DNA of 64,000 nucleotides, taken from NCBI GenBank assembly GCA_028287235.1, contig JAQBQB010000022.1, positions 124,001 through 188,000 of the forward strand. The letters run 5' to 3'. This DNA is from Gemmatimonadota bacterium. GTDB lineage: Bacteria > Gemmatimonadota > Gemmatimonadetes > Gemmatimonadales > Gemmatimonadaceae. Shown here in pieces: positions 1,964-43,184 of the stretch. Under the pieces are notes generated by a model, which was given only the letters and a program-made list of their open reading frames with translations, was not told the origin of the DNA and searched no databases. A program made the translations under genes and the position numbers. Positions within the stretch are counted from its first letter, which is position 1. Each line of letters starts with the position of its first letter.

Positions 1964-4900
1964 ATGTCTCGATTGCACGTGCTTGTCTCCCTCCCGCTTG
2001 CCGCCATGCTCGCGGCTCCCGCGGCCGCGAACGCGCAAACGCGCATGCTTCGCACGCCGACGGTCAGCAAGACCCAGATCGCCTTCGCCTACGCGAACAA
2101 CATCTGGACGGTCGACCGATCGGGCGGCACGGCGCGCCGGATCACGAGCTTCCAGGGCACGTCGGAAAATCCGAAATTCTCGCCCGACGGAAAGCTCATC
2201 GCGTTCAGCGCGCAATACGGCGGCAACGTCGACGTGTACATCGTGTCCGCCGAGGGTGGTGAGCCGAAGCGGCTCACGTGGCATCCGGGCGCCGACATCG
2301 TGCAGGGTTGGACGCCCGACGGAAAGACCATCGTCTTCCAATCGTCGCGCGCGTCGGCCGCCCCGAGCGCGGTGCCGCGCTTCTGGACCGTGTCGGTCGA
2401 CGGCGGACCGGAGACGCCCATGCCGCTGCCGCGGGCATTTCAGGGCAAGATCTCGCCCGACGGCAAGCGCCTGGCGTATCGCATGAACAACTCGTGGGAC
2501 GAAGAGCGCCGCAACTATCGCGGCGGGCAGAATCGTCCCATCTGGATCGTCGATCTCAAGACGTGGGATCTCGAGACCACGCCGAAGGTGACGTCGGACC
2601 TCGTCGTTGCGCAGGCGGGTGGGCCGCGCGGCGCGACGAACGTGCAGGTGCCGCTCAACCCCGATTCCAAAGACATGGATCCGGTGTGGGTGGGCGACGA
2701 CGTGTACTACATCTCCGACCGCGACGGCGTCGCGAACGTCTGGGACTACGACACGAAGTCGAAGAAGCTCACCCAGCTCACGAGCTTCAGCGACTACGAC
2801 GTGAAGGCGCTCGACGCCTCGAGCGACGGAGAGGCCGTGGTGTTCGAGCAGGCCGGCTACGTCCATCTGCTCGACACCAGGTTGAAGAAGGAGCACATCG
2901 TCAACGTCAACGCGACAGGCGATTTTTCGTGGATGATGCCGGAGTGGAAGGACGTGAGCGCGAACATCGCGAACCTCACGCTCTCGCCCACGGGCAAGCG
3001 CGCCGCCGTGGAAGCGCGCGGAGAGATCTTCACGATCCCGGCTGAGAAGGGCGACGTCCGCAACCTCACCAACTCGAGTGGATCCGCCGAGCACGAGCCG
3101 GCGTGGTCGCCCGACGGCAAACAGATCTCGTACTTCAGCGACAAGTCCGGCGAGTACGCGCTCTACATCGAAGCTCAGGACGGCCAGACGCCGGCACGCG
3201 AGATCAAGATTCCAACGACGGGCCACTTCTACACGGCCGCGTGGTCGCCCGACGGAAAGCGCATCATGTTCCACGACACGAACCTCAAGCTCTGGGTCGT
3301 GGACGTCGCGACGGGACAAGCGAAAGTCGTTGGCAACGATCCGTGGATGGTGCCGGCGCGCACGATGAATCCCGCGTGGTCGCCCGACGGCAAGTGGATC
3401 GCCTACGCGAAGCACTTGAACTCGCTGTATAAGGTGATTCAGGTCGTCAACGTCGAGACGGGCGAGAGCAAGCAAGTCACCGACGGTCTCGCCGACGCGA
3501 TGTCGCCGGCGTGGGACGCGAGCGGCAAGTACCTCTGGTTCCTCGCCTCGACCGACTTCGCGCTCAAGTCGCAGTGGCTCGACATGTCGCAGAGCGATCA
3601 CACGGAGACGTTCGGTCTGTACGCGGCAGTGCTGCGGAAGACCGATCCGTCGCCGTTCCTGGCGGAGAGCGATGAAGAGGACGGGGGACGAGGGAATGCA
3701 GGTGGTCGTGGCGGCCGAGGTGGCGCGCCCGCCGCGGGCGATAGCTCGAATGCCAACCCGCTTCCCGCGCCCCGCCTCCCCCTTCCTTCAGTGCAGATCG
3801 ACTTCGACGGCCTGCAACACCGGCTCCTCTCGGTGCCGGGCATCGTCGACCGCCCGTACACGAACCTCCGCGCCGGCACGGCGGGCATGGTGTACTTCCT
3901 CGAGCCGGGGGGAGCCGGCGGCGGTCGCGGCGGCGCGGGCGGTGGTTCGGCGATGCATCGGTATTCACTGCGCGATCATCGCGACATTCCGTTCATCACG
4001 GGCGTGGCCGATTACACGCTGAGCCTCGACGGACACAAGCTGCTCTATCGCGGTGCGGGCGGCGGTGCGGGTGGCCGAGGTGGCCGCGGCGGTGCCGCGG
4101 CCGGCGGACCGGCACTTTTCCTCGTGGACGCGGATCGCGCTGCGCCCGCGGCCGGAACTGGCCGACTCAACGTCGAGCTGCGCGCCAACATCGATCCCAA
4201 GGCCGAGTTCAAGCAGATCTTCAACGAGGGGTGGCGCAACCAGCGCGACTACCTGTACGTCACGAACCAACACGGCGCCGACTGGCCGAAGGCGAAGGAG
4301 ATGTACGGGGCGTTGCTGCCGTACATCAACCATCGCGCCGATTTGAATTATCTCATCGACATGATGGGCTCCGAGATCGCGGTCGGACACTCGTTCGTGC
4401 GCGGCGGCGACATGCCGGACGTTCCCGTCGTGAACGGCGGTCTGCTCGGCGCGGATTTCGCGGTGGAGAATGGACGCTATCGCATCACGAAGATCTACGA
4501 CAACGAGAACTGGAATCCCGATCTGCGCGCCCCGCTCGCCGCGCCCGGCGTGGACGTTCGCGTCGGCGACTATCTGCTGGCGGTGAACGGCGTAGAGCTC
4601 AAGGCGCCGGACAACGTGTATCGCTTGCTCGACGGTACGGCGAATCGCCAAACCAACCTCACGGTGAGCTCAACGCCGGTGATCGACGGCGCTCGGCATG
4701 TCGTCGTGACGCCGATCGCGAACGAACAGACGTTGCGCAGCCGCGCTTGGGTCGAGAACAACCGGCGCGTCGTCGATTCGCTGTCGCACGGGCAGTTGGC
4801 GTACGTCTATCTGCCGAGCACCGCGGGCCCAGGCTTCACGAGCTTCAACCGCTACTACTTCGCGCAGCAGGACAAGCTCGGCGCGGTGATCGACGAGCGG

Positions 4901-36149: not shown

Positions 36150-36221
36150 GGTGCGGTAGCCAAGTGGTAAGGCAGCGGTCTGCAAAACCGCTATTCGCGA
36201 GTTCGATTCTCGCCCGCACCT
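36150..36221 (+). tRNA. tRNA-Cys (anticodon GCA)
   Basis: A 72-base cloverleaf: acceptor GGTGCGG (36150-36156) pairs with CCGCACC (36214-36220); D stem GCC/GGC; anticodon stem GCGGT/ACCGC with loop CTGCAAA, anticodon GCA at 36182-36184; T arm GCGAG-TTCGATT-CTCGC. The discriminator base is T, as required by cysteinyl-tRNA synthetase. CCA is not encoded. A strong terminator follows. Confidence 0.97.
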
Positions 36222-36254
36222 CTGGAAGCCTCGTCTCTGAGGGACGCATAGGCA

Positions 36255-40286: not shown

Positions 40287-40952
40287 CTAGGGCTTCAACC
40301 GCCAAAAGTCATCCGTCAATCCGACACTGTCGAGCACCGTTTGCGCTTCATCTGCTGCGCGCGGCCGCCACGAAGCTTCGCGGCGGTCCACGTACCAGGC
40401 TTTCGACAAGCGCCAGGTTTGCTCGAGCGACAGCACGTAGCCGCGCGGTTTCTTGTTCGCTGCGAGCCATGCATCCAGGTGTTCTTCCGACCGGAAGAAG
40501 AGCATGGTGCTTCACGTGAAGCCGATGTCGTCGTACCACCGGCGCGCGGGCAGCAGGATGTGAACGAGGCCGTCCGACGACCGCGGGCCGTCGCGTGCGT
40601 CGACGTCGATCTCGACGTGTTCATTGCAATCGGCGCACATGGCATCGATGCGAACGGACTCCGACAGGAACGCGGGAATTCCGAACATGTCCCAGGCGCA
40701 GTTGGCCCACCACGAGGCGCGTGCGCCATGTACGCGGAAGCGTGTCGAAACCGCCGAGAAAGGCGCGGCCATCCAGATTTCGCGCGACGCCGGGTGCAGG
40801 ATCACCGCGCGCGATTTGCCGAGTGCCACGAGAGCTTCTCGCGCATCGTCGGGCGTGGTGCCGAAGTGCGAGGCGATCGCGTCGGACGTCGGTGCCGCGC
40901 CGTGGTCGGCGAGCTGCGCGTAGATGAAGATGCGGAGCTGGTCTAGTTCCAT
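40287..40952 (-). CDS. MerB-like (alkylmercury lyase family) protein, probable selenoprotein with in-frame TGA
   Basis: Read through one TGA, this is a 221-residue protein. Residues 1-60 are a winged-helix-like N-terminus (YAQLADHGAAPTSDAIASHFG). The catalytic part has ANCAWDMFGIPA with Cys85 and Asp88, matching Cys96-x-x-Asp99 of mercury-cleaving MerB, and an LLPARRWYDDIGFT strand leading straight into the TGA (codon 147, 40514-40512), then STMLFFRSEEHL. In MerB this place is Cys159 of SFCCHVHFFAS. The Cys-to-Cys spacing is 62 here and 63 in MerB. The C-terminal 74 residues (YVLSLEQTWRLSKAWY, VGLTDDFWRL) stay in frame. A SECIS-like hairpin follows the TGA. A nonsense-mutated pseudogene is the alternative. 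The start abuts a dispersed repeat. Confidence 0.75.
40482..40514 (-). promoter_or_regulatory. candidate bacterial SECIS element and Sec codon
   Basis: Minus strand: TGA (40514-40512), 12 bases, then TTCTTCC (40499-40493), loop GGTC (40492-40489) and GGAAGAA (40488-40482), a perfect 7-bp stem. The loop begins 19 bases after the TGA; in Escherichia coli fdhF the GGUC loop begins about 18 bases after its TGA. Two GAA codons form the 3' arm although GAG prevails in this GC-rich genome. Confidence 0.65.
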
Positions 40953-40985: not shown

Positions 40986-43100
40986 TCAGTTCCACCGCTC
41001 AATCGAATCGTGCAGCATCCGAAGCTGCCGCGCGAGACGATTGACGCGCGTACGCACGGCGGGAGACACGCTTTCATTGGGCATGGCGACCGTGCCCACG
41101 GCGGGAAACGGCGCGGGAGGTCGGCCATTGGTCACCGCCTCGGCCAGATCATCGAGTATCTGGTCGGCCGAGCCGGCGAAGGCGGCGAGCGATGCAGGCG
41201 GCGTCCGTCCGCCGGCGTTCGCGGTAAGCGCGAGCGCCGCGGTAGACGCGGCGAAGCGGCGCGTGTACGTGAGGAACGCCATGATCGGTTCGAGACGCTC
41301 GGCAGGGCCGGAGTACTCGCCGAGCAGACGTTGAAAGGATTCCTCGGCGTTGCTCGCGGCGAGGGCGATGTCGCGGCGCGCGTCGCGCAGCACGCCGGCG
41401 GGGAGCTCGGTGTCGCTCGTCGCCACGCGAATCGCGAGGCGGAGAAACTCCCTGCTCGCACGCAGCGCGGCCGCGGCGTGCTCAGGAAGGCGCTTCCATT
41501 CCTCCGACGGCCAGAGCAGGCGCGACCCGGCGAGCGCCAACGCACCGCCGATGAGCGTATTGGTAATTCGAATGCCGGCGAGATGCCAATCGCCGATGCT
41601 CGATTCGGCGAGCAGCACGAACGCCGGCGCCCCGAACACCGCGTACGCGCCGTAGTTGAGCGGCAGCAGCGCGACGCAGAGCGCCGTGAAGATGGCGATG
41701 AGAATGAGGACCGCGGCGAAGTTGTGAAAGAGCGCGCTCAATCCTGCCGCGACCACTCCGCCGAGTATCGTGCCGAAGACGCGTTGGAGCGCTTTCTGGG
41801 TGGTCGCGCCGCTGTACGGCTGGAGGATGACCACCGCCGTGAGCGTGACCCAGTAGCCGTGATCGAGATGGAGCAGGCCTGTCACGAGCACCGCGGTGCT
41901 CGTGACGATCGCGATGCGCAGCGCGTGCTGGAGGACGACCGAATCGGCGCGCGCGACGGCGCGGAGGGAGAAGAGTCGCAGGCGGGGCGCGCGGAGCTCG
42001 CCGACGGAGATGAGCTCCTCGTCTTCCGTCGATTGGCCGCCGCTGTTGAGCGTGGCGACCGTGGCGCTGGCGGCGACGGCGTAGTCGGCCATGCGGTCGA
42101 GCAGGGCGGCGACCGGTTCGTAGCGCGGATCCCCGGAGCTACGCAGTGCGGCGCCGCTCCATTCCACGGGAACGCGCCGGTCGTCGTCCTCCGACTCGAT
42201 CTCCTCGGCGATTGCGCGCACGGTGTTGGCGATGGCCCTCAGCGTATCGAGGAAGGTGCGCTGCTCCGGCGCGTCCGGCGCGCCCGTGGGCAAGACGTCG
42301 ACGACATCCATGAGCGCGATGAGATGGGCGTAGAGCTGGTCGGCGAGCTCGTGGAGCATGAGCAGTCGTTCGCCACGGCCGGTCTCGCCGGAGCGGCCGC
42401 GGCGAGAGACGGCGAGGGAGCTCCGCGCCGCCTCGATCGCCATGCGCGTGGCGACGAGGTGTTCCTTGAACTCCCAGGTATCGTGCGGCTGCCCCAGTTC
42501 GCTCTTCGCGACGACATCGGCGAGGTACGCCACGATCTCCCGGTAGCATGCCGCGACGCTCAACCGCACAGGGCGGTAGGGGCGGAGCGGCCACACGACG
42601 ATCGCGATCAGAAGCGCCCAGAGTCCACCGATCAGGATGTAGACCGGGCGCATGAGCGCGGCGGCGACGCTTCCGGACGGGATGGCGAGGGAGATAGCGA
42701 AGGTCACTAGGACCGTCACACCAAAGCCGGCGCCGATGTCGGGCCAGACTCGGACCATTCCGCAGGCGAAGGCGACCGCAAAGGCGACGGGGACGGCCAG
42801 GAGGAAATGGCCGGACACGGCCGCTCCGATCAGCGCAACCGTCGCGCTCGCCAACGCGAGCACGGTCATGGTGATGGCCCGGGTGCGATAGGGGCCGCCG
42901 CGATCGATCAACGCGCCGTTCAAGCCGGCGAGGCTCATCCACGCTCCGCCGCCGGTTCCGAACCATCGGTCGACCAAAAGGGGAGTGACCGTGGCGACGG
43001 CGGCGCGGAATCCGGCGGCGTAGGCCGGCCGGGCCTTGGCAACCACGGAGGCGACCCGGGCGTCGTGCAGCGCGCGCTTTGTGAAGTTCGTTCGAAGCAT
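40986..43100 (-). CDS. FUSC family membrane transporter
   Basis: A 704-residue inner-membrane protein with the two-half FUSC architecture seen in aromatic-acid exporters (AaeB/YccC). The first half carries five or six helices ending near PVYILIGGLWALLIAIVVWPLRPY, a cytoplasmic helical domain follows, and the second half repeats helices with HGYWVTLTAVVILQPYSGATTQKALQRVFGTILGG, the family signature, and LNYGAYAVFGAPAFVLL. ATG 43100 follows CTGGAG. It may export organic anions. It ends 33 bases upstream of the MerB-like start, in the same direction, so the two may be co-transcribed. Confidence 0.9.
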   Translation of the reverse strand: MLRTNFTKRALHDARVASVVAKARPAYAAGFRAAVATVTPLLVDRWFGTGGGAWMSLAGLNGALIDRGGPYRTRAITMTVLALASATVALIGAAVSGHFLLAVPVAFAVAFACGMVRVWPDIGAGFGVTVLVTFAISLAIPSGSVAAALMRPVYILIGGLWALLIAIVVWPLRPYRPVRLSVAACYREIVAYLADVVAKSELGQPHDTWEFKEHLVATRMAIEAARSSLAVSRRGRSGETGRGERLLMLHELADQLYAHLIALMDVVDVLPTGAPDAPEQRTFLDTLRAIANTVRAIAEEIESEDDDRRVPVEWSGAALRSSGDPRYEPVAALLDRMADYAVAASATVATLNSGGQSTEDEELISVGELRAPRLRLFSLRAVARADSVVLQHALRIAIVTSTAVLVTGLLHLDHGYWVTLTAVVILQPYSGATTQKALQRVFGTILGGVVAAGLSALFHNFAAVLILIAIFTALCVALLPLNYGAYAVFGAPAFVLLAESSIGDWHLAGIRITNTLIGGALALAGSRLLWPSEEWKRLPEHAAAALRASREFLRLAIRVATSDTELPAGVLRDARRDIALAASNAEESFQRLLGEYSGPAERLEPIMAFLTYTRRFAASTAALALTANAGGRTPPASLAAFAGSADQILDDLAEAVTNGRPPAPFPAVGTVAMPNESVSPAVRTRVNRLARQLRMLHDSIERWN

Positions 43101-43184
43101 GCTCTCCAGGCGGCCAACCCTCACGGGCAGGCGGTCTTACAACGCTCCAGCGGCCGCCCGCGTAAGCTCAAGTGGATGAACGTG

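Follow-up and report, generated by a model that had tools for sequence, protein, structure and literature searches.

MerB is among the closest described relatives of the protein studied here. The mercury ligands of MerB are Cys96 and Cys159, and its Asp99 acts in proton transfer (PMC4525700). One merB census, covering 80,925 genomes of bacteria, checked MerB homologues for Cys96, Asp99, and Cys159, and its table has few MerB entries from Chloroflexi (7) and Gemmatimonadetes (1) (PMC8261052). An "alkylmercury lyase MerB-like protein" was listed among selenium-containing proteins (PMC9312934). A later review names this protein SaoL, with the model NF040728 and the motif CU (PMC13188914), and the accession is identical to that of the PMC9312934 entry. 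The original prediction for the present locus, which knew of no described selenium version, was therefore too strong on this point. Selone mimics of organomercurial lyase were reported to be faster than their sulphur analogues, the thiones (PMC11639659).

The window analysed here is the whole 64,000-nucleotide stretch of the Gemmatimonadota contig JAQBQB010000022.1. It contains a MerB-family gene in which a single UGA interrupts the reading frame. The features of the locus are as follows:

40287..40952, minus strand: MerB-family gene with one UGA read through; 221 codons, ATG at 40952, TAG stop at 40289-40287.
40512..40514, minus strand: in-frame TGA, codon 147, very probably read as selenocysteine (Sec), at the place of MerB Cys159; the aligned rows have TGA in 92, TAG in 3 (Geodermatophilaceae), and Cys in 11.
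40482..40499, minus strand: SECIS-type hairpin UUCUUCC-GGUC-GGAAGAA, starting 12 nt past the UGA; supported by third-position invariance, compensatory changes, and the fold.
40698..40700, minus strand: Cys85 codon, equivalent of MerB Cys96; unchanged in all Sec (93) and Cys (11) forms.
40689..40691, minus strand: Asp88 codon, equivalent of MerB Asp99; Asp in 93/93 Sec forms, Cys in 11/11 Cys forms.
40635..40637, minus strand: Cys106 codon, probable equivalent of MerB Cys117; Cys in 72/93 Sec forms.
40986..43124, minus strand: FUSC-family (fusaric-acid-resistance-like) membrane protein, a possible operon partner (Pfam FUSC_2, 78 bits).

The FUSC-family gene ends 33 nt upstream of the ATG of the MerB-family gene on the same strand, and the two may possibly lie on a joint transcript. 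No conservation of this pairing was seen in the loci of relatives. The other neighbour in the window is a convergent TetR regulator. The sole tRNA found in the window was a tRNA-Cys(GCA) gene (36150-36222, plus strand), which gave a weak match to the tRNA-Sec model.

The frame of 221 codons with a lone internal stop, the TGA of codon 147 (40514-40512), was confirmed as predicted. The 74-codon open frame past the TGA is unremarkable alone at 66% GC (P about 0.29). The TGA shared by 92 rows (87 distinct), the purifying selection on both of its sides, and the conserved hairpin are far beyond chance. Within the same bacterial family, 30 of the 179 genomes searched hold a relative. Exactly one in-frame stop was present in 14 of these 30, and in each case it was the TGA of the shared column. 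The remaining relatives covering this column have Cys there. The close relatives of the same family showed no scattered stops besides the aligned TGA, and the variation between Sec and Cys at exactly codon 147 is that proposed as a check in the original prediction.

When 84,980 species genomes were scanned, 378 relatives were confirmed, of which 80 were kept. The kept loci were ranked by likeness to the Sec-form query, so the sample leans to Sec forms. The codon at the place of Cys159 was TGA in 79 and TAG in one (Geodermatophilus saharensis). According to the record titles, the kept relatives belong to Chloroflexota, Acidobacteriota, Actinomycetota, Calditrichota, KSB1, Marinimicrobia, and Gemmatimonadota. 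Taken over all aligned rows, the TGA at the shared column extends to six or more phyla, and the carriers are soil and water bacteria of several phyla. An assembly error, which the original prediction had named as a possible refutation, was ruled out because the same TGA occurs in many independent genomes.

Purifying selection was seen on both sides of the TGA. The window gene paired with its nearest relative (56%) gave a dN/dS of 0.40/2.19 before the TGA and 0.44/2.68 after it; the dS of this pair is near saturation. Pairs within the Geodermatophilaceae also showed dN < dS on either side of the Sec codon.

A separate downstream gene starting from the inner ATG (Met150, 40505) was considered and rejected: no recognisable ribosome-binding site lies ahead of it, and Ile replaces Met in 25/93 relatives. 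Some further loci are recorded here as side observations. The Rubrobacter radiotolerans plasmid NZ_CP007515.1 has at 3935-4204 (L140) a copy whose frameshifts and TAG around the Sec TGA suggest decay. The 90-aa "organomercurial lyase" WP_041338655.1 that RefSeq calls at this locus stops exactly at the Sec TGA of the family. Another MerB-like match, more distant and with a single internal TGA, lies in the genome of locus L086 (G276:C567:361-666, minus strand).

With the T of the TGA as nt 1, the hairpin occupies nt 16-33 (window 40499-40482) and has the loop GGUC. Third codon positions within the hairpin (18, 21, 24, and 27) were 92-99% invariant across the 87 distinct sequences, versus 32-71% for those outside it (6, 9, 12, 15, 36, 39, and 42). 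All five inner pairs were formed in 81/87 sequences. Pair 18-31 showed covariation, with C-G in 78, G-C in 4, A-U in 2, and U-A in 1. The Cys-form homologues have no hairpin, and even those encoding FRSEE use different codons. The folding energy of the hairpin region of the window copy alone was no better than that of synonymous shuffles, so the case for a SECIS element rests on the family alignment. A scan of the gene against Rfam gave no match, which is no evidence against the hairpin because the hairpin is short.

A close relative was found in 3 (L128, L149, and L150) of 79 Geodermatophilaceae genomes, and all three have TAG at the Sec codon. The tRNA-Sec of G. saharensis, the only one of the three TAG genomes checked for it, scored 65 bits and has the anticodon CUA. 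A tRNA-Sec with this anticodon and UAG-coded selenoproteins have been published for the Geodermatophilaceae (PMC5330540). The codon thus follows the anticodon of the tRNA-Sec, and therefore points to Sec and nothing else. The gene is also a further UAG-coded selenoprotein candidate for the Geodermatophilaceae, besides FDH, the UGSC-motif protein, and AhpC.

The selenium machinery was searched for in the genome of the window (5.73 Mb, 31 contigs). The tRNA-Sec (selC) scored 73.7 bits, with the anticodon UCA, on contig C21. The selD gene (378 bits) lies approximately 100 nt before it, and selB (345 bits) is on the same contig. The selA gene (449 bits) is on contig C11. All four genes that the original prediction proposed to look for were thus found. 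Among the genomes of Sec forms, selA was present in 12/14, and one of the other two had a tRNA-Sec. Either selA or tRNA-Sec was therefore found in 13/14 Sec-form genomes, versus 4/14 Cys-form genomes (Fisher P = 0.001). This P value is a guide only, since relatedness makes the genomes non-independent and many of them are not complete. Judged from its recoding signals, family, and machinery, the window gene is almost certainly a selenoprotein gene. The selenoprotein interpretation of the original prediction is supported in this way, while lyase activity remains inferred.

The read-through protein matched the Pfam family PF03243 (MerB) above the gathering score, with 100.2 bits (cut-off 27, E 1e-28). 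The segment ahead of the TGA reached 50.5 bits by itself, so the sequence past the TGA contributes about half of the domain score. The NCBIfam MerB models gave scores below both cut-offs, namely 41.5 of 193 bits for NF009710 and 34.4 of 200 bits for NF033555. No NCBIfam model except MerB and SaoL matched any of 22 family members.

With phmmer, Cys85 was aligned with the first catalytic Cys of the solved MerB2 (5c17) and codon 147 with the second; Asp88 fell on the Ser that MerB2 has at that place. A classical MerB (L147) reads WCALD and AFCCQVLFF where the window protein reads NCAWD and FTUSTMLFF, with equal spacing. The originally predicted equivalence of Cys85, Asp88, and codon 147 with MerB Cys96, Asp99, and Cys159 held in these alignments, and the spacing between the first and last residue is 62 versus 63 residues, as claimed. 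Cys85, Asp88, and Sec147 are jointly invariant in the 93 Sec forms, and Trp87 is likewise invariant in 93/93.

The AlphaFold model of the window protein had a pLDDT of 95.7 and a pTM of 0.91. The top solved Foldseek matches of the model were MerB2 and MerB (E 1e-10 to 1e-9). VIA-align gave Z 18.3 over 186 residues (rmsd 3.5) against MerB2 5c17, and Z 15.1 over 180 residues (rmsd 4.4) against MerB 3f2f_B. A MerB fold is thus predicted by the model for the window protein; likeness of fold alone is no proof of function.

Cys-form MerB-like proteins of Gemmatimonadota and Pseudomonadota, such as the "merB" of Sphingomonas panacis (WP_069207870.1), share the clade and rough length of the window family. 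Their identity is 30-38%. They differ in having Cys at 147 and Cys for Asp at 88 (CxxC...C), lack the hairpin, and mostly come from genomes without selA. A 105-sequence tree placed the Cys forms and two Pseudomonadota relatives in one group nested among the Sec forms. The support for this nesting was moderate (80-84), and the tree search was a quick one. The simplest reading is one loss of Sec together with the change of Asp to Cys; the Cys forms are then likely derived, within the limits of this support. The exchange of Sec for Cys was accompanied by that of the catalytic Asp for Cys without exception (CxxD...U versus CxxC...C; Cys forms L023-L036).

We consider it likely that the protein is an organomercurial lyase acting by the MerB mechanism. 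Recoding signals, family membership, the modelled fold, and the matching of the site residues are read from the sequence; the organomercurial substrate, the catalytic steps, and the activity are inferred, and there are no expression, selenium, or enzyme data. In the proposed mechanism, the UGA of codon 147 would be read as Sec by SelB and tRNA-Sec, helped by the hairpin that follows. The Sec selenol, Cys85, and Asp88 would form a three-residue S/Se/carboxylate site matching MerB Cys159, Cys96, and Asp99. The Cys/Sec pair would grip the organomercurial (R-Hg+), Asp88 would relay a proton to the carbon, and R-H would leave. Hg(II) may then remain bound by the S/Se pair until it is taken away by cellular thiols or a partner. 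Mercury has a higher affinity for selenium than for sulphur, and a selenol is deprotonated at neutral pH. The likely gain from Sec would be that organomercurials are captured and cleaved even at very low concentrations, and its price would be a harder release of Hg(II).

The surroundings of the gene showed no mercury context. No mer genes adjoin it in the window, and no MerA was found above the NCBIfam cut-off in the genome of the window (best 346 of 454 bits, not beside the gene). Neighbourhood clustering of 80 loci revealed no mercury-related partner. In many Chloroflexota loci, genes for HMG-CoA reductase, a peptidase, or a kinase are found close to the family gene. A reading as a resistance operon is not easy because of the FUSC and TetR neighbours, the absence of mercury neighbours in relatives, and the lack of a MerA above the cut-off.

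The rival explanation that survives best is a true MerB-fold selenoprotein whose natural substrate is not an organomercurial, and this remains possible. The options would be a different organometal or metalloid (organotin, organolead, or methylated As, Sb, or Se), or else a metal-binding or redox role. This rival is favoured by the lack of a mer operon in the loci examined, by the Chloroflexota neighbours described above, and by the lack of a clear MerA in the genome of the window. The NCBI name of the related SaoL is also "organometallic", not organomercurial, lyase. Against it, the full MerB residue set (Cys-x-x-Asp and a chalcogen at 159) does not vary among the 93 Sec forms and fits Hg-C protonolysis.

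A second rival is that the family is simply an orthologue of SaoL and hence already described. SaoL is itself a Sec MerB-like protein, and NF040728 weakly matches residues 6-132 of the window protein. However, this match reached only 33 bits of the 140-bit cut-off, and none of 49 further carrier genomes scored above the cut-off. The residue before Sec was T, N, A, or S in 93/93 sequences and never C. No SAO-like genes were present among the window neighbours of the MerB-family gene; the other loci were only clustered, without a scan with SAO models. On the scores and the residue before Sec, orthology with SaoL is very unlikely. The family is likely a branch apart from SaoL; an earlier mention of this branch is not excluded, and no SaoL sequence was compared.

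The remaining rivals are virtually eliminated. A dying gene in which UGA is a real stop could be supported by the decayed Rubrobacter plasmid copy with frameshifts and a TAG besides the TGA, but the single TGA common to 92 rows, dN < dS downstream of it, the conserved hairpin, and the absence of other stops in close relatives speak against a pseudogene. Many bacteria read through UGA at a low level, but a reading as Trp or by a near-cognate tRNA without selenium can hardly be maintained, as the homologues carry Cys and never Trp at 147, the SECIS-type hairpin is present, and the Geodermatophilaceae TAG with the CUA tRNA-Sec of G. saharensis is explained only by Sec.

The reading of the family as a Sec organomercurial lyase would have consequences for mercury surveys. 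Bacterial methylmercury breakdown is usually scored by counts of merB with Cys96, Asp99, and Cys159. Sec forms would not have been counted as canonical in the merB census because homologues were examined for Cys159 (PMC8261052), and gene callers and mercury-gene surveys demanding Cys159 would overlook them. If the organomercurial activity is true, the demethylation potential of soil and sediment is undercounted, and mercury breakdown would depend on selenium supply. The Sec family is also a natural test of the contribution of selenium to Hg-C cleavage; the Cys forms of the clade also differ at the catalytic Asp. On balance, we lean slightly towards a bolder reading. The family would be a large, previously unseparated group of selenium-dependent organomercurial lyases that degrade methylmercury in at least six phyla, missed because UGA or UAG ends the gene call and censuses require Cys159. 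Sec would be old in this group, and the loss of selenium would be joined with the change of Asp to Cys.

Compared with the known systems, the window protein shares with canonical MerB (R831b type, PDB 3F0O/3F2F) and MerB2 (PDB 5C17) a predicted fold over most of its length (Z 15 to 18). The positions of Cys96, Asp99, and Cys159 and a PF03243 score above the cut-off are common to MerB and the window family. The window family differs from canonical MerB in having Sec for Cys159, which is not a cysteine but probably does the same job, far lower NCBIfam scores, no mer operon, and an identity of only 15-21%. With SaoL, the MerB-like organometallic lyase of the SAO system, it shares the MerB superfamily and selenocysteine, whereas the reported motif is CU in SaoL and T/N/A/S-U in the window family. 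One Sec MerB-like protein, SaoL, was thus already known, and what is likely new is a widespread Sec variant of the MerB kind.
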